Shown here piece after piece: positions 3,201 to 25,244 of a DNA stretch of 29,179 bases (positions within the stretch are counted from its first letter, which is position 1; every line of letters starts with the position of its first letter). The stretch is from the IMG/VR virus record IMGVR_UViG_3300009703_000077, positions 1 through 29,179 of that record. One strand, 5' to 3'. A model generated the notes under the pieces. It saw only the letters and a program-made list of their open reading frames with translations, was not told the origin of the DNA and did no database searches. The position numbers and the translations under genes are program-made. The stretch is from a virus.

Positions 3201-6200
3201 ATAAGATACAGTAATCCCTGTTTCCGTATTTGAACCTACCATCGCACCGACTGTGTCGGCTATGGTTTCAGATAAAGTAGTACCATTGATAGTTAAAGCA
3301 TCTGTTTCTAGTGTGCCATCTATATCAACATTTCCAGAAATATCTAAAGTCGCTGCAACTAATTCACCGCCTATCGTTAAATCACCGCTTGATGGGTTGT
3401 AAGTAAGTCCTGTATCTGTTTCTATTCCTTGCGTTCCTGTCGCACCATCAACAAAGGTCAAATAAACAGTTTCATCAGTAGAATTATTAGCAGAAGCTGT
3501 AATGTTTGTCGCTTCTGTTGATAATGCTACCGCTATATTGCTAGTTCCATCAAAGCTAGTGCCACCAATGGTTCTCGCTGTTGCTAATGCTGTTGCTGTA
3601 GCTGCATTTCCTGTCGTATCTTGGTTCAATGTTCCAATAACGAAATCAAGCGTGTTATCAGAGTCTTGATATGTGACTGTAATGCCTGTTTCGGTATTAG
3701 AGCCAACCATACCGCCTATGATGTCGGCAATCCTTTCTACATTGATAGTGACATCACCGCTTGATACTGAGAAATCAGTACCATCAAATGTGGCTACACC
3801 TGCATTAGTTTCTGTTGCAAGTTCTGCTGCGATAGTTATTGTGTCGTCAGATACAGTAGTATCAATACCTTCGCCACCTGTAAATGTTAATGTTCCGCCT
3901 GTTGCGAATGTGTCGTTAGAACCGCTATCTGCTGATAAAGTAAATGATGTTGATATATTGTTGGTAGAAATTGATGTAATTCTACCTTTTGCATCTACAG
4001 TCACTGCAGGGATAGCTGTAGCAGTCCCATAAGAGCCTGCAGACGCTCCTGAATTAGAAAGTGCTACAGCACCACTACTTACACTGAAATCGCTTCCAAA
4101 TGAAGCAATCCCTTTGTTTGACGATGTGGCATCTTCTCCTGCTATCGTTAGAGTTCCTGAACTTTCTGTTATATCTACACCTTCACCTGCTGTGTAGGTT
4201 ATTGTTCCGCCTAACGCAATCGCTGTGGTGTTACTACCATCAGAAACAGTTATTGCTGAATTTGCTAATTTGGCATTAGCTATAGAACCTGCCAACATAG
4301 CGTTAGTTATATCGCCAGAGCCTATAACCAAATCTATGGTTCCATCGCCATCTTCATATGTTGCTGTGATACCAGTTTCAGTATTACTACCGAACATAGC
4401 ACCTACTGTATCTTGCACAACCTCAGATAAATCTATATTGGCAGTACCATCAAAACTGACACCATGAATTGTTCTGGCAGTTTCAAGTGCTGTAGCTGTC
4501 GCTGAGTTTCCTGTTGTGTCCTGATTGAGTGTGCCGATTACTAAATCAATGGTATTGTCGCTGTCTTGGTAAGTTGCAGTAATTCCAGTTTCTGTGTTGG
4601 AACTGAACATTGCACCGACTGTATCTGATATAACTTCAGACAGGTCTATATTAGCCGAACCATCAAAGCTAACACCATGTATAGTTCTCGCTGTTTCTAA
4701 AGCAGTAGCAGTAGTAGAATTACCAGTTAAAGCACCTACTAAAGAAGCTGCATAAAATGTTTTATTAGAAGATAATCTAGAGTTTCCATTGTCCCATGTT
4801 ATAGTCGGTTTTCCGCTAGAAGCACCAAACTCTAGTCCTGCGCCATCTGTATTAGCTAATGTGGTAGCACCTTTGCCTACTCTGATGGTTAAATCTTCTA
4901 CTGTAAGCGTTGAAGTGTTTAGTGTTACTGTATCTCCATTTACAGTTAAATCACCTGTTACTGTTAAATCATTTCCAATTGTTACATCATCAGGTAGCGA
5001 GATAGTCACTGCTGCAGTTTCTGAACCTGAGCCTGAAACAGTTATCTCGTTTGAGGTACCTGCTATCGTGGCAATATAATTACCAGTTGATTGTGTTCCT
5101 AGTGCGACAGCATTGTTTGCAATTTGATCTGTGCCTATAGCATCGTCTGTAATGTTTAAAGTGATAGCTGCATTTTCAGAGCCTGAGTTAGCTACAGTTA
5201 TATGTGAATTACCTGCATCAGCTATAGTTGCGACATAATTTCCTGTGGTATCAGTACCTAAAGCTACCGAATCCGCTGCGACTGTTAGTGCAATAGATGT
5301 ATTGCCTAAATTAGTCATAGTGCCTGAGCCAGTAACATCTCCTGTAAATGTTAGTGTCGGGTCAGCTACATTGAAGTCTAAAGTGCCATCACCATCTTCA
5401 TAAGTGACTGCTATGCCTGATTCAGTATTAGAACTGACCATCGCACCAACAATGTCTTGAACTCTTTCTGCATTAAGTGTTACATCGCCACTAGAAACTG
5501 TAAAATCTGTTCCATCAAAAGTAGCTATACCTTTGTTAGTTTCAGTAGCATCTTCAACACTAACTGTTATCGTGGCATTCTCTGAACCGCCACCAGAAAC
5601 ATCAATACCTTCACCTGCGGTCAAATCAGCTACATAATTTCCTGTTGTGTCTGTTCCTAATGCTATTGAGTTAGCTTGTATTGTGGTCGTTATTGTTACA
5701 TCACCAAGATTGGTCATTGTCGCACTACCTGCAACATCACCGCTCAAGGTTATAACTGGGTCACTAACATTGAAGTCAAGTGTTCCATCGCTATCTTCGT
5801 ATGTTACTGCGATACCGCTTTCGGTGTTGGAAGATACCATTGCACCGACTAAATCTTGTATTCTTTCTGTTTGTAGTGTTACTGCACCGCTAGATACAGA
5901 GAAGTCAGTAGCATCAAAACTTGCAATACCTTTATTGCTGTCTGTTGCATCTTCTGCGCTTATGGTAATCGTAGCTGTTTCTGAGCCACCGCCACTTACA
6001 TCTATGCCCTCTCCTGCTGTAAGGTCGGCTACATAGTTTCCAGTAGTATCTGTGCCTAAAGCAACTGAATTAGCTTGTATGGTTGCTGTGAGCGTTCCTG
6101 AAGCCAAATCAGTTATTGTTACTGAACCACCTAAATCTCCTGCTAGAGTTATAGTGAAGTCAGCAACATCAAAATCTAATGTGTTGTCTGAATCTTGATA

Positions 6201-19939: not shown

Positions 19940-20046
19940 ACATATTTTATTTTAATGACTGGATATATCTAGCCAATCATTTAGTTCTTTCGCCAAAGAC
20001 TCAGTTTCTTTCGGTGTGTTCAAAGAATAATGTTCTATGTTTTTAG
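19936..20046 (+). pseudogene. Possible truncated gene start at the junction with the modification operon
   Basis: An ATG at 19936 overlaps the previous stop (ATGA) and is preceded by GAGGAAGC, almost the same context as the start at 19724 (GGAGGAAGC). The frame has only 36 codons (MNIFYFNDWIYLANHL...) and from 19952 runs antisense through the 3' end of the kinase gene. A good start signal leading to a very short frame suggests a gene cut off when the oppositely oriented cassette was placed here. It could also be a real micro-protein or chance. Confidence 0.3.
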
Positions 20047-20494
20047 CTAGTCTTTGATTAGTGCATATATTGTTTATCTTTGTTATTCTTGATTTCTTGA
20101 ATTTTTCTGATTGATTGTCGCCTCTGTGATTATGCCTAAAGTCTAGCGTTTCAGGTATATTCTCTAACACTATAATTCTTGTGTCATAAGAATTACATAA
20201 TTTCTCTAAGTTTGTGCCAGTAAATAACCTATCACCCTCAAACAGTATGTTCTTTTCAAACTTATCTATGTATTTATCAAAGTCGCTTTGAACCGCCATA
20301 GAAAGTTTATCTGTCCCTGCGAACACTTCTTGTCTTTCGTATATACCTAAAATACTGATATTCCTTTTAGTTTCAACATATCCACGCAACAAACCATACT
20401 TAAATTTTGTTTTCGGTTGTATAAACCCCAATAAAGACCTAACTAGTGTTGTCTTACCAGTTGCAGGGACACCGCCTATAGCTACGCATTTCAT
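19952..20494 (-). CDS. P-loop kinase, likely 5-hydroxymethyl-pyrimidine DNA kinase
   Basis: This 180-aa protein has a Walker A motif GVPATGKT at residues 8-15, a central ILFEGDRLF strand that would carry the Walker B-like acidic residue, and a basic FRHNHRGDNQ segment like the lid of small-molecule kinases. By itself it would be called an AAA_33/zeta-type kinase. Its ATG overlaps the aGPT-Pplase-like gene by 4 bp and it is the last gene of the modification operon. In known thymidine-hypermodified phages a P-loop kinase phosphorylates 5-hydroxymethyluracil in DNA before amine transfer, so that role is inferred here. Substrate is not provable from sequence; a free nucleotide kinase is the alternative. 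Confidence 0.68.
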   Translation of the reverse strand: MKCVAIGGVPATGKTTLVRSLLGFIQPKTKFKYGLLRGYVETKRNISILGIYERQEVFAGTDKLSMAVQSDFDKYIDKFEKNILFEGDRLFTGTNLEKLCNSYDTRIIVLENIPETLDFRHNHRGDNQSEKFKKSRITKINNICTNQRLAKNIEHYSLNTPKETESLAKELNDWLDISSH

Positions 20495-21468
20495 AATGTT
20501 CCATACTCCAATGTTCCTGTATCTAAGAAAACCTCATATAATTCTTTCCTTATAGCTTTGCTTTCATGTAATGGTTGTTCAAGCGTTTCTTCTCTTGCGT
20601 CCCAAAACACTTGCCAATCTATACCTGCCCAATCATCAGCTTCTACTTTCTTAATTTCTTCTGCTTGTCTATCTAGATAATACCCTAAATATCTACCTTG
20701 TTTTTTTCTAAATATCTTTTTGAAGCTACACAAAAGAGTTTCCATTTGGTATAAATCCATATCCACTTTGTATTCTTTTCCAATTTCTTCTCTAATTCTT
20801 AATGCCTGTATTTCTAAGTGCTGTGTAGTTATAGGTTTTAGTTTTTTATTAATAAGTTCATCGTGGCACAAAGCATATAACAATCCATTACGATGCGACT
20901 TGCTACCGCTATAATCAGATAGTTTTAAGTTATCAGGTAAGACATTTACACCCACACAATCTTTCAATGTTTGCAAATAATACCAAGTAGAGTATCTGCC
21001 GAACTTGTGCATATTGAGAATTATGCTTTGCCAAACGAAATCAAAAGACTTTTCTTGTAGCTTATCAAACCTATGTCGCTGTGTTTTCTCTGGGTTATTG
21101 TGCATAATCCATCGTTTATAACTGGCAAATTGGTCTGGTAAATGCCCTTTATTCCATTTCGTGTCAGTTTGATAACGCAACCTGTGATAGTTTTCATTGT
21201 TCCATTTTTTTAATCTGTTTTGGTCAACCAACTCAAAATCAGGGAACTCATTCCATATAATCCAAGCTGTAGGCAAATGATAAGTAGTGCCATATATCCA
21301 AGCTATCCAATACTTTTGTTCTATATTGTGCTCATACCTGTCAAATAAATAATTCAACAACCACAATGCAGGGTCGCAGTCTTTGTGTTCTATAGACCAA
21401 ACGCACCATTCTTTGAATGCTAATTCTCTATTTTCCTGCAACCTATAATCCACGATACCCTGACTCAT
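20491..21468 (-). CDS. aGPT-Pplase-like amino acid:DNA transferase
   Basis: This 325-aa protein is Trp/Tyr-rich and helical, with HKFGRYSTWYYLQTLKD (about 154-170), GLLYALCHDE (195-204), METLLCSFKK (242-251) and GRYLGYYLDRQAEEI (258-272). I recognise this set as resembling the alpha-glutamyl/putrescinyl thymine pyrophosphorylase family, also called amino acid:DNA transferases, which have a DNA glycosylase-like helical fold. In hypermodified phages they replace the phosphorylated hydroxymethyl group on the base with an amine or amino acid. Coupling to the kinase (4-bp overlap) strongly supports this. ATG at 21468 is used here; a TTG directly before it is possible. The family call is from memory of motifs, so subfamily is uncertain. 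Confidence 0.7.
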   Translation of the reverse strand: MSQGIVDYRLQENRELAFKEWCVWSIEHKDCDPALWLLNYLFDRYEHNIEQKYWIAWIYGTTYHLPTAWIIWNEFPDFELVDQNRLKKWNNENYHRLRYQTDTKWNKGHLPDQFASYKRWIMHNNPEKTQRHRFDKLQEKSFDFVWQSIILNMHKFGRYSTWYYLQTLKDCVGVNVLPDNLKLSDYSGSKSHRNGLLYALCHDELINKKLKPITTQHLEIQALRIREEIGKEYKVDMDLYQMETLLCSFKKIFRKKQGRYLGYYLDRQAEEIKKVEADDWAGIDWQVFWDAREETLEQPLHESKAIRKELYEVFLDTGTLEYGTL

Positions 21469-22021
21469 CAAATACTTTTATACAACCGCCTCGCCCATTT
21501 TTATAAACAGCAGAATTGATAACAGGGTCTTTTATGTCATATATACCATCAGAGAAAGTTTTACCTGCTATAAGGAACATTGATAACTGACTTTTAGATT
21601 TTTGCTCACCTAACATTATGAAACCTATATTCTTATAAAAATCTACCGCTTCAGGCTCTGCTGATACTCTGAAATATCTAGCTTTATTTTGAATGGCATA
21701 CAAAAGACTGTAATTGCAGAGTTTCCTAGCTACACCTTTCCTGCGATGTTTAGCAAAAGTGTGTAGTAGTTGTAAATTAGCTACTTTTGGCTCTTTTTTA
21801 GATATGGTTGTTATAATCGCACCACACAATTCGTTATCTTCTGAATAACCAACACACCTGTTCCAATACTTACCCATGTTAGCTTTAGAAACGAATGTAT
21901 GTGCAAATTTATCAGCAACATCTTCTGTAATTGATTCACAGAATGCTTTTTTACTACACCTTGATAAACTCACGAACTTTATTGCCTCTGCTTTTATCAT
22001 GTTTGGTCTTTTGCCAACCAT
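21443..22021 (-). CDS. GNAT-family N-acyltransferase
   Basis: This 192-aa protein has the acetyl-CoA-binding motif A of GNAT enzymes, KHRRKGVARKL (Arg93-x-x-Gly96-x-Ala98), after a beta strand (LQLLHTFA), and motif B near residues 117-135 (FRVSAEPEAVDFYKNIGF). It sits in the middle of the modification operon, so acylation of an amino group on the modified base or a small precursor is a fair inference; protein or metabolite acetylation is possible. The start is uncertain: ATG at 22021 overlaps the amidoligase by 68 bp and ATG at 22000 by 47 bp. Both are unusually long overlaps for this operon. Confidence 0.8.
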   Translation of the reverse strand: MVGKRPNMIKAEAIKFVSLSRCSKKAFCESITEDVADKFAHTFVSKANMGKYWNRCVGYSEDNELCGAIITTISKKEPKVANLQLLHTFAKHRRKGVARKLCNYSLLYAIQNKARYFRVSAEPEAVDFYKNIGFIMLGEQKSKSQLSMFLIAGKTFSDGIYDIKDPVINSAVYKNGRGGCIKVFDESGYRGL

Positions 22022-22829
22022 TGTATTCTTTAATATCCCACACGAATGGTGGGAATTTATAGTCGTAAGAACTCAATATCTCATATACATTGGGTCCATC
22101 ATTCAGTGCAGCATCAATGAAGTTTTCAGCAAATTTGAATTGGTCATGTATTTCCCTTTTGTTAGTTGTAGAGCGAAAGCACCTAAATTCAATAGTTTCA
22201 GTATGTTTTAAACAATAAGTATTGATTGCATATCTGAAAGGTCTGCCCATAGAAACACCATCTTTTCCTGCAGCGTGTAATTTAATGTAATGTTCAAAGT
22301 TTTCAGCTAAATTTATAATGTTGTTGCACATATATGGTGGCATTTCTCTACCGCCATCATATTTAAGATACATCTTGGCTCCTTTTGACTTTTGCATAGC
22401 TATTCCTGCATCGTAGAAGTTATAAAGCGTAGCTATAGTAAGTGCTTGGTTAGACATAATGTATTTGGTTAGTCGTTTCAACGCTTCTATGTCGTTTATC
22501 AATTCAGGCACATGAACATGAAGGTGACCATGATTAACACAAGCAGCAGTCGGTGTGTCGCCCTTCTCAACGAAAAAATTGAACAAATCCATAATAAGTT
22601 CTACTTGTTCTTGCCAAGTAGCTGTGGGTTTTGTATTTATCTCACCGCCCATGTGTGGAGTTTCACCTAATGGGTCACATGCAACATATTGAAAAGGTTC
22701 TATAATGTTTACTATATCGGTTTCAGCATATTCCCATTTACCAAACTTTTCAGGTATCTCATGTTTCCTGTTTATATCACCCCATTCAACCTCATATCCC
22801 CATGTAAATTTCTTTTTGTCGTAATTCAT
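21954..22829 (-). CDS. Amidoligase (COOH-NH2 ligase) family enzyme
   Basis: This 291-aa protein shows the pattern of the Amidoligase_2 family, which shares the glutamine synthetase-like ATP-dependent ligase fold. GYEVEWGD (Glu13, Glu15) begins the active site, GGEINTKP (Glu63) follows, then NHGHLHVHV (His100, His102, His104, His106), and YAIN plus TIEFRCFRS (Glu214, Arg216) near the end. The enzyme would form an amide or peptide-like bond using ATP. Its ATG overlaps the glutamine amidotransferase stop by 4 bp, so the amidotransferase probably supplies ammonia. In this operon the acceptor may be an amino acid attached to a DNA base. Confidence 0.85.
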   Translation of the reverse strand: MNYDKKKFTWGYEVEWGDINRKHEIPEKFGKWEYAETDIVNIIEPFQYVACDPLGETPHMGGEINTKPTATWQEQVELIMDLFNFFVEKGDTPTAACVNHGHLHVHVPELINDIEALKRLTKYIMSNQALTIATLYNFYDAGIAMQKSKGAKMYLKYDGGREMPPYMCNNIINLAENFEHYIKLHAAGKDGVSMGRPFRYAINTYCLKHTETIEFRCFRSTTNKREIHDQFKFAENFIDAALNDGPNVYEILSSYDYKFPPFVWDIKEYNGWQKTKHDKSRGNKVREFIKV

Positions 22830-23491
22830 TGTAAATCCTCAATAACATCTCTAATTCTTATTTGTTTTAAAGCGTTATTCTGTATAACATAATCAACACA
22901 AGACTCGGTTTTTTCTATTCCGAACCCACTAATACCTGCTCTTTCCAATATATCTTTAGTACTTGCTATGAATGTATCTTTGTTCGTTTGTGCATAATAT
23001 AAAGGTCTTTGTTCGTTTCTAAAGAAATGCATAGAAGCTGTGCCTCTTGCATCTATAACTACTGCTGACATAGAACCTTCTAACCACAAAGCATGAGATT
23101 GGTTTTCCCATGCACGCAAGATAATTTCACTATCGCATTTCGTTTCAAATTTGTAGTTGTAGGTATCTTCCCATGTGCTAGGGTCTGCCTGTGTTATCAC
23201 ACCATTATGAACAACAGCTATATCTTGACTAACTATGGGTTGATTCCACTCAATATCGGAAGTGCTATAACGACAATGCGCTATCAGCATTTTTGTATAT
23301 ATATTATCAGGTATATCAAATGCATCAGCTGATTTAGGCAAAATGAAATGTTTTATTTTATTAGCATCTTTGTAGTCTATATAAGCTAGTCCAGTAGCGT
23401 GTTTGCCTCTTATCATTGACTGGTCTAATAGTTTTCTAAATGAATCTATATCTACTCCATCGTTATTATGGACACCTATAACTGCACACAT
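22826..23491 (-). CDS. Class II glutamine amidotransferase
   Basis: This 221-aa protein is a stand-alone class II (Ntn-type) glutaminase domain. After Met removal the nucleophile would be Cys2 (MCAVIGV). Other family elements are in order: IRGKHATGLAY, AHCRYST (Arg74), VVHNGVI (His95-Asn96-Gly97, oxyanion region) and KCDSEII (Asp120, glutamine binding). The domain releases ammonia from glutamine for a partner synthetase. It lacks the synthetase domain of GlmS, PurF or AsnB, and the amidoligase overlapping its 3' end is the obvious partner. All recognisable active-site residues are present, so it is likely active. Confidence 0.9.
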   Translation of the reverse strand: MCAVIGVHNNDGVDIDSFRKLLDQSMIRGKHATGLAYIDYKDANKIKHFILPKSADAFDIPDNIYTKMLIAHCRYSTSDIEWNQPIVSQDIAVVHNGVITQADPSTWEDTYNYKFETKCDSEIILRAWENQSHALWLEGSMSAVVIDARGTASMHFFRNEQRPLYYAQTNKDTFIASTKDILERAGISGFGIEKTESCVDYVIQNNALKQIRIRDVIEDLQ

Positions 23492-23499
23492 ATAATCCT

Positions 23500-24420
23500 C
23501 TACTTATCTATTAGACTTTCACCCTTTTGTCTAGTTTGTGCTCTTTCTATTTCCGCATCTGCGTCTAAACAATGGTGCATTTTTTCTCTGTAATAACAAA
23601 CGATTGATATTCTTTCGTATGCTAGTTTTGCTTTAGTTTCTGTATTAGCGTGGTATTCGTGAACATTGAAGAAACAAACATCGCCTGAACGAACATCAAA
23701 CGCTACTCTGTATCTTGGTATTACTGTGTAAGCACCTTCATATTGACCTGCTTCTAATACAGCTAAATTTCCTAAACCTTCTGCATAATCTCCTGCATCT
23801 ACATGCAATGCAGTTCTGAAGTTTTTGTTAACAGTTATAGTCGTGAATACAGTATCTTTGATAAGAAAATCTTTGCTTGTTTTTTCTGCCATAGCTTTTT
23901 GATTGGCATATCTTTCAGGACAGGCTTCTGCAAAAAGTTTATCTATATAGTGTATGTATGGATAAGCGTCTTTGAACTGTTGAAAATTCTTTTCATACCA
24001 AGATGTTTGTCGGCAGTAAGGAAACCTAGCGTTCCTATCAAAAAACCCTACAACACCTGAGTTTACTGTATTGGCTCTTGAGGTATTGCTCAAAGTTCCA
24101 TCTTTTTTGATACCGCTAAACCTTATTTTACTTAAATCGCCTATGTCCCAATCGGTTTTGGTTTGTTCAGATATTATTCCGCCTGCAGCACCTCTGTTGT
24201 TAGTTGGCGCAGCAGCATTTCTTAATGCTTTCCATGCATCTTTGCATAAACTAGAAGGTATTTTGTTTTTTCTGAAAAAAAATAATGGCTCACCATTTTC
24301 ACCATAGGCATCACAATCATCTCTTATGACTGTGTCGTAGTCTTTTTCTGTTATCCACTCTCCTTTACGCTTTGCTATCTCTTGTTTTGTGTAGTGTGGT
24401 TTTAAATTATAAACTTTCAT
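23500..24420 (-). CDS. TET/JBP-family Fe(II)/2-oxoglutarate DNA base dioxygenase
   Basis: The C-terminal half of this 306-aa protein has a double-stranded beta-helix dioxygenase pattern: TALHVDAGD (His206-x-Asp208), a central LEAGQYEGAYTVIPRYR, FDVRSGDVCFFNVHEYHANT (distal iron ligand His257, less likely His254), and YERISIVCYYRE (Arg270 for 2-oxoglutarate). The spacing and the GNLAVLEAG, HEYHANT and ISIVCYYR elements match the TET/JBP branch rather than AlkB or prolyl hydroxylases. An upstream SRANTVNSGVVGFFDRN segment (114-130) is also typical. Such enzymes oxidise the methyl of thymine (JBP) or 5-methylcytosine (TET) in DNA. The gene overlaps the ParB-like gene by 14 bp. No methyltransferase is in the window, so the base is undecided. 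Confidence 0.83.
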   Translation of the reverse strand: MKVYNLKPHYTKQEIAKRKGEWITEKDYDTVIRDDCDAYGENGEPLFFFRKNKIPSSLCKDAWKALRNAAAPTNNRGAAGGIISEQTKTDWDIGDLSKIRFSGIKKDGTLSNTSRANTVNSGVVGFFDRNARFPYCRQTSWYEKNFQQFKDAYPYIHYIDKLFAEACPERYANQKAMAEKTSKDFLIKDTVFTTITVNKNFRTALHVDAGDYAEGLGNLAVLEAGQYEGAYTVIPRYRVAFDVRSGDVCFFNVHEYHANTETKAKLAYERISIVCYYREKMHHCLDADAEIERAQTRQKGESLIDK

Positions 24421-25034: not shown

Positions 25035-25244
25035 TTATTTCTCCAAATAAAAATCATTGGGCGACACTTGTTCTTTGGTCGCTATGTAGATTATGTTTAA
25101 TTCCTTCTTTCTAGGTATGCGTTGACCTAGAATGTATTTAGCTAATGTGCCTTGTGGTAGCGTGTGCCCTGTTTGCTCTTTCACTTCTTTTATAAAGGCA
25201 GACTGGGTGTATTTATTGTCTTTTAAATATTCTGTTAAAGTCAT
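25035..25244 (-). CDS. Small Xre/Cro-like helix-turn-helix regulator
   Basis: This 69-aa protein has a helix-turn-helix over most of its length: YTQSAFIKEVKEQTG, then LPQGTLAKYILGQRIPRKKEL, followed by a short C-terminal beta/helix segment. It is the first gene of the leftward modification operon and faces the recombination arm across a 110-bp control region containing two tandem promoter-operator units. A Cro-like repressor of its own operon and of the divergent genes is the natural reading. It may also bind the ATTCC-N5-GGGTT elements elsewhere, which is untested. The last codons (LEK and stop) contain the ribosome-binding site of the ParB-like gene. Confidence 0.75.
   Translation of the reverse strand: MTLTEYLKDNKYTQSAFIKEVKEQTGHTLPQGTLAKYILGQRIPRKKELNIIYIATKEQVSPNDFYLEK

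Follow-up and report, generated by a model that had tools for sequence, protein, structure and literature searches.

The window, by which we mean the whole stretch of DNA analysed (29,179 bases, an entire virus record and a 29.2 kb genome fragment of a marine virus of bacteria), encodes a TET/JBP dioxygenase that likely oxidises thymine in DNA, which would feed a post-replicative thymidine hypermodification through a kinase, an amino acid:DNA transferase (ADDT) and tailoring genes and would replace the TS-type hydroxymethylase. This reading, in which we have good confidence, is drawn from comparison of sequences and is based on two patterns in the records examined: ADDT and a C5-methyltransferase never co-occur, and ADDT pairs with either TET or a divergent TS, not with both. 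Direct oxidation of thymine had been raised as a possibility in a first-pass annotation of the window, and the co-occurrence patterns of ADDT, TET, TS and C5-methyltransferase support it. The idea itself is not new. Iyer et al. reportedly predicted in 2013 that hydroxymethyl-pyrimidines derived from phage TET/JBP enzymes serve as starting points for further modification, and the cassette is already in print for the phage Tonitrus.

The TET/JBP gene and its operon

The 306-residue product matches the Tet_JBP family (PF12851) with an E value of 1.9e-24 (86.2 bits against a curated cut-off of 34.9) and phrog_24024 at 3e-77. Its AlphaFold2 model (pLDDT 92, pTM 0.89) is matched by TET2 (Z 21.1, 258 residues, 3.2 Å) and NgTet1 (Z 19.4, 224 residues), and both matches to this predicted structure span almost the entire chain; the best non-TET row has a Z of 13.7, and AlkB-type enzymes score far lower than TET2 and NgTet1. 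The residues that bind the metal and 2OG are all kept, namely H206, D208 and H257 of the HxD...H motif and the 2OG-binding R270. The profile match, the fold matches and the intact residues bear out the first-pass annotation, which had called the gene a TET/JBP enzyme, and judged by sequence and modelled fold it is unambiguously a TET/JBP dioxygenase of full length whose active site is intact. In a Pfam scan Tet_JBP alone exceeds its cut-off, and the SNF2 domain of JBP2 and the J-binding domain of JBP1 are absent. All fold matches are 5mC (or 6mA) enzymes, including CcTet with 6mA DNA (7w5p); because JBP oxygenase-domain structures are absent among the rows, these matches cannot discriminate the substrate. 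A sequence search of the PDB with an alignment of the TET type found in phage Melnitz returned zero matches. Phage TET genes are frequently misnamed in public records, as SNF2 DNA repair protein, DnaJ or queuine tRNA-ribosyltransferase (the last for LilMcDreamy gp02 and phrog_6059).

The gene lies among eight minus-strand genes (from 25244 down to 19952) that overlap or almost abut, with gaps of -68 to +8 bases, and the order of the operon is that of Table 1.

Table 1. Genes of the operon around the TET/JBP gene, in order of transcription (positions in the window)
Product	Position	Strand	Evidence
Small helix-turn-helix-like protein, 69 aa; operon's first gene, probable regulator	25035..25244	-	Weak HTH_3
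ParB N-terminal domain (ParB_N) protein, 216 aa	24407..25057	-	PF02195 E 4e-7; phrog_620 8e-51
TET/JBP 2OG-Fe(II) dioxygenase, 306 aa	23500..24420	-	PF12851, fold matches, active-site residues
Class II glutamine amidotransferase domain protein, 221 aa, N-terminal Met-Cys	22826..23491	-	PF13522 E 3e-12
Amidoligase-like protein, 291 aa	21954..22829	-	PF12224 16.1 bits, below cut-off 22
GNAT N-acyltransferase, 192 aa	21443..22021	-	PF13673 E 7e-14
ADDT, amino acid:DNA transferase (aGPT-PPlase2 type), 326 aa, TTG start as called	20491..21471	-	PF18724
P-loop kinase, 180 aa, Walker A GVPATGKT	19952..20494	-	AAA_18 20.9 bits, below cut-off 29.4

The helix-turn-helix-like gene (HTH_3, 16.5 bits, under the cut-off of 23) is present in 18 of 78 loci. 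The ParB gene overlaps the TET gene by 14 bases and accompanies it in 49 of 51 non-redundant loci of the window clade versus none of the 91 loci of the Melnitz clade, in which TET is linked to a C5-methyltransferase; its product is likely a DNA-binding or recruiting partner of TET. The amidotransferase, a predicted ammonia source, is found in 28 of the 78 loci, 21 of which have ADDT. Of 22 loci with a GNAT-like gene, all have the amidotransferase and 21 have ADDT; the start called for the window GNAT, which gives an overlap of 68 bases with the preceding gene, may be too far upstream. The amidoligase is rare (4 of 78 loci, two being one phage), and that it ligates a carboxylate with ammonia or an amine is speculative.

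ADDT matches PF18724 at 1e-20 (74.9 bits, cut-off 26.2), and its tblastn matches in ViI-like phages cover 96% with an identity of 27-29%. Relatives of the kinase match Ploopntkinase3 (PF18751) at 44 and 199 bits, and the P-loop is kept in all 41 family members; the window kinase itself, like the amidoligase, falls under the Pfam cut-offs, so that both names rest on motifs and relatives. The kinase is a predicted 5-hydroxymethyl-pyrimidine DNA kinase. Elsewhere in the window, the gene of a 2325-aa tail protein contains an internal repeat of 455 bases (5230-5684 and 5629-6083, 69% identity).

Partner genes of TET and TS

The IMG/VR collection was scanned with the window TET (70 loci) and with the Melnitz TET (71 loci), and further loci were taken from two more scans and a scan with the TET of the Gordonia phage Wooper. 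One locus was kept per identical last 450 bases of the TET gene, which left 234 non-redundant loci, many of them on truncated contigs. ADDT and a C5-methyltransferase occur together in none of the 234 (Table 2). Pfam scans of representatives agree with the labels, with the exception of the Melnitz-type kinase, which is under the Ploopntkinase3 cut-off.

Table 2. Partner genes in the non-redundant TET loci (number of loci with each gene)
Group	Loci	C5-methyltransferase	ADDT	Kinase	ParB	TAGT
Window clade	51	0	25	28	49	12
Melnitz clade	91	83	0	25	0	15
Cr30/DLP6 clade	70	1	44	40	1	6
Wooper clade	13	0	2	7	12	8
Phage records	9	1	1	4	3	4

The C5-methyltransferase abuts TET in 83 of the 91 Melnitz-clade loci, with a median gap of -3 bases. 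A profile built from the Melnitz enzyme finds it in 66 of the 71 Melnitz-type loci and in none of the 70 window-type loci, and the former figure indicates that the absence from the latter is not a failure of detection. When only loci with at least 2.5 kb upstream and at least 4.5 kb downstream of TET are counted, the 22 loci of the window clade comprise 14 with ADDT and kinase, three with the kinase only and five with a TAGT glycosyltransferase, none having a C5-methyltransferase, which is present in 13 of the 14 Melnitz-clade loci so filtered. At one Cr30-type locus, L338, TET is accompanied by TAGT and by a C5-methyltransferase 5 kb away from it.

In a tree of 59 TET cores (55 of the 229 usable sequences and four actinophage TETs), the ADDT label occurs in three clades and changes 16 times, at least 12 of these changes being forced by supported branches, and the C5-methyltransferase label changes twice. 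The repeated changes of the ADDT label imply that the downstream module has been swapped repeatedly on TETs without a methyltransferase partner, although part of the apparent ADDT losses is due to truncated contigs. For the C5-linked TETs, partner gene and phylogeny are confounded, as those sampled are one clade.

Two other genes were considered as markers of thymine modification and rejected. The first-pass annotation had described both the kinase and ADDT as being of the thymidine-pathway type; the description holds for ADDT and fails for the kinase, relatives of which are found in 25 of the 91 loci of the C5-linked clade. TAGT likewise follows C5-linked TETs (15 of 91), and phage T6 uses it on cytosine, the substrate there being described as glucosyl-hydroxymethylcytosine (PMC13216743).

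Other genes occupy the same neighbourhood in some relatives. In Melnitz, a 427-aa protein with no Pfam match at E 0.01 is encoded between TET and the kinase (L078, 6269-7552) and is possibly a transferase for modified cytosine. In the Pelagibacter phage HTVC112P, the gene right after TET encodes an FkbM-type methyltransferase instead of ADDT or TAGT (L072, 8497-9195). An N6_N4_Mtase-like gene lies between TET and ADDT in L051, L054, L055-L059 and L061, and a DAO-type flavin enzyme follows a short ADDT in L063.

The window was also compared with a longer relative, G001 (53,802 bases), in which the window's 29,179 bases recur with 12 mismatches. G001 has a terminal direct repeat of 163 bases with one mismatch, as in a closed genome, and is thus an apparently complete phage genome of 53.8 kb. 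Profile searches with PF00145 (C5-methyltransferase), PF00303 (TS) and PF02511 (ThyX) gave no match in the window, as expected from the first-pass annotation, which had seen no methyltransferase or hydroxymethylase gene there. That annotation had named a C5-methyltransferase elsewhere in the genome, together with activity on 5mC only, as what would count against thymine oxidation, and had proposed a search of the remaining genome for TS homologues and hydroxymethylases; across all 53,802 bases of the near-identical G001, none of the three profiles has a match. A Pfam scan of ten G001 proteins encoded outside the window likewise found no methyltransferase; it identified ArdC, lysozyme, CHASE2-cyclase, CsgG and CsgF, and the remaining ORFs on that part of G001 were inspected as translations. 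The ArdC-type anti-restriction protein, with a zincin domain (33428-34321 of G001, L100:13428-14321), is a second possible counter-defence gene of this genome. The Curli (type VIII) secretion genes CsgG and CsgF lie with the CHASE2-cyclase at 37382-42182, and T8SS clusters resembling them are reported in pelagiphages (PMC9599517).

PF00145, PF00303 and PF18724 were also searched in 40 of the 70 window-type IMG/VR records, together with the window and seven phages, and PF00145 was found in one of these 48 records, that of Melnitz. The other 30 loci, which are shorter, were checked with the custom C5-methyltransferase profile and a motif scan. One PF00303 match, in G004 (13.1 bits, cut-off 24.3), is weak and was treated as chance.

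The relation between TET and TS was followed in 20 complete cultured genomes, a non-random sample chosen by hand to span genera, out of 376, 273 and 71 tblastn matches plus the TET matches, 18 for an ADDT-like gene and two (Margaery and Ottawa) for TET. PF18724 is above its cut-off in 18 of the 20. PF00303 is found in 13, of which 12 are divergent (27-65 bits) and one, in Cr30, is an ordinary-looking ThyA (373 bits). PF12851 is detected at E <= 0.01 in eight genomes, those of Wooper, Margaery, Ottawa, Tonitrus, Phelemich, Kozie, LilMcDreamy and Cr30; the seven actinophage matches (19-33.5 bits) are below the cut-off of 34.9, and the Tonitrus and Wooper genes are annotated as Tet-like J-binding. 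PF00145 has no match in any of the 20, including all 18 with ADDT.

The 18 ADDT genomes divide into 12 with a divergent TS and no TET, five with TET and no TS, and Cr30, which has TET and ThyA. Without Cr30, the 19 genomes form a perfect 12:7 split, with a chance of about 2e-5 if they were independent, which they are not, so that the split is to be read as a pattern and not as a test. The divergent-TS set includes PhiW-14 and ViI-like phages, and thymidine modification is described as established in PhiW-14, ViI- and M6-type phages (PMC6449724, PMC5977210); pelagiphages with TS plus aG/PT-PPlase1 are also reported (PMC9599517). The simplest reading of these gene contents is that one transferase is supplied with one and the same 5-hydroxymethyluracil by either of two enzymes, TET or the dUMP hydroxymethylase, and TET seems to replace the pre-replicative hydroxymethylase in this role.

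Alternative substrates and base-reading positions

The main alternative is that the window TET oxidises 5mC laid down by the host or by an undetectably divergent phage methyltransferase, and that the kinase and ADDT act on 5-hydroxymethylcytosine. The phage TETs assayed by Burke et al. reportedly act on 5mC (Burke 2021). The top fold matches are 5mC enzymes, the kinase family adjoins a C5-methyltransferase and TET in Melnitz-type phages (25/91), and the phage TETs studied to date are described as 5mC enzymes (PMC12730594); activity of ADDT on a cytosine adduct is also conceivable. However, none of the 51 window-clade loci has the C5-methyltransferase, which 83 of the 91 Melnitz-clade loci have; none of those 91 loci has ADDT, and the 20 cultured genomes, 18 of which have ADDT, lack a PF00145 match. 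Additionally, methylation by the host would be expected to limit the modification to a few host sites, and the window clade shows no depletion of GpC. We consider this explanation unlikely.

The odds of GpC are 0.79 in the Melnitz clade (64 loci, depleted) and 1.25 in the window clade (40 loci), and they are 1.21 in each of the pelagiphages HTVC010P and HTVC019P, which were taken as TET-less from their annotation and their absence among the TET tblastn matches. Among the TET clades, GpC depletion is restricted to loci whose TET abuts a C5-methyltransferase (L116-L186, L203-L263). CpG is also depleted in the window phage (0.60-0.63), and this was dropped as a sign of CpG methylation, since HTVC010P (0.31) and HTVC019P (0.46) are equally or more depleted.

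Oxidation of thymine as a nucleotide (dTMP or dTTP), with hydroxymethyluracil entering the DNA at replication as in the classical pathway, would explain the mutual replacement of TET and the divergent TS equally well. To our knowledge, the characterised TET/JBP enzymes act on polynucleotides, which speaks against this possibility, as do the complete TET fold of the model, a fold known from DNA complexes, and the ParB-type gene that overlaps TET in almost all window-clade loci; we regard it as very improbable. That TET acts outside the ADDT pathway on another base or methyl group, such as the N6-methyladenine suggested for CcTet, is hardly to be expected: the CcTet structure was solved with 6mA DNA (7w5p) and an N6_N4_Mtase gene adjoins TET in some relatives (8 loci, cluster 30), but the window operon has no N6_N4_Mtase-type gene, the relatives that have one also have ADDT, or ADDT and the kinase, next, and both the operon layout and the exchange of TET for TS link TET to ADDT.

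For thymine oxidation in DNA, D211 (three residues after the HxD motif) and R278 are candidate base-reading residues on the evidence of the alignment. Position 278, eight residues past the 2OG-binding Arg, aligns with a His of NgTet1 and TET2 that presumably contacts the base. Among the readable rows it is Arg in all 50 of the window clade and all 70 of the Cr30 clade, Leu in all 13 of the Wooper clade, and Asp in 84 and Gly in three of the 87 of the Melnitz clade. The HxD+3 Asp together with Arg278 could be a fit for thymine, and a second Asp in place of the Arg could accommodate the amino group of 5mC. Taken as a single-residue rule, Arg278 for thymine is weakened by the Leu of the actinophage TETs that accompany ADDT, on account of which it is not general, by Gly in three rows of the C5-linked clade and by L338, which has Arg along with a C5-methyltransferase.

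Proposed pathway and comparison with known systems

The genes, the intactness of their active sites, their order and the pattern of their partners are observed; from these we infer the following substrate, order of reactions, product and protective role. The window TET would hydroxylate thymine in already replicated phage DNA at the 5-methyl group, yielding 5-hydroxymethyluracil, like kinetoplastid JBP, and would thereby take the place of the TS-like dUMP hydroxymethylase that begins the classical pathway. The P-loop kinase would then phosphorylate the hydroxymethyl group, and ADDT would put an amino acid in the place of the phosphate. Trimming or capping of that amino acid may follow, carried out by the amidotransferase, GNAT and, in this phage, the amidoligase, and probably consists of carboxylate amidation and amine acylation. 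The phage DNA would thus acquire a thymidine hypermodification after replication, which would shield it from host nucleases. The exact product is proposed tentatively, because the amidoligase is present in only four of 78 loci and relatives use other tailoring genes, such as the DAO-type flavin enzyme.

A wider proposal, which we put forward tentatively and regard as doubtful in its entirety, is that phage TETs fall into two classes by substrate, one oxidising 5mC and the other truly thymine, the latter being an independent post-replicative replacement of the hydroxymethylase in marine phages, large myophages and actinophages; that the window product is a thymidine hypermodification of a new kind, its amino acid being amidated by the amidotransferase and amidoligase as a pair and N-acylated by GNAT; and that Asp211 and Arg278 read N3-H and O4 of thymine.

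The titles and opening lines of abstracts in the literature searched mention no phage TET assayed for oxidation of thymine, although such a report could have been missed; restriction digests of DLP6 are published (PMC5349666). If the thymine reading is true, bacterial viruses hold DNA thymine hydroxylases, a reaction so far tied to kinetoplastid JBP, which bears on the origins of JBP and TET, and phages make 5-hydroxymethyluracil in two unrelated ways, before and after replication, for one transferase. Post-replicative oxidation could be site-selective and could provide a thymine-specific DNA-modifying tool, and cultured phages with the cassette, along with their hosts, exist.

The closest known arrangement is that of Tonitrus, a Rhodococcus phage whose cassette is described as a five-gene thymidine hypermodification system (PMC11955845). 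In Tonitrus and Wooper, ParB, a Tet-like J-binding protein, aGPT-PPlase2 (ADDT) and the kinase stand together in one run at the genome start, with no C5-methyltransferase or TS genome-wide, and the same combination is found in the window and G001. However, the window TET is only about 19% identical to that of Wooper, whose type has Asn and Leu where the window has Asp and Arg, and the window operon differs in gene order and adds the amidotransferase, amidoligase and GNAT.

The classical systems of ViI, YuA/M6 and PhiW-14 all share ADDT (PF18724) with the window phage, but they have a divergent TS-family hydroxymethylase and no TET, whereas the window phage shows the reverse, TET without TS. 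Tailoring in thymidine hypermodification reportedly includes flavin enzymes and acetyltransferases as known classes (Lee 2022), and the acetyltransferase of the window and the flavin-enzyme class of its relatives fit these. The Melnitz-type TETs are PF12851-related and have the same HxD...H...R core, and some share the kinase family or TAGT; unlike the window TET, they are abutted by a C5-methyltransferase, lack ADDT and ParB, and have Asp at the position of Arg278. Finally, the window TET resembles kinetoplastid JBP1 and JBP2 in its predicted conversion of thymine to 5-hydroxymethyluracil in DNA, and in some of its relatives a TAGT glycosyltransferase replaces ADDT after TET, which is reminiscent of base J; unlike JBP1 and JBP2, with their J-binding and SNF2 domains, it consists of the oxygenase domain only.
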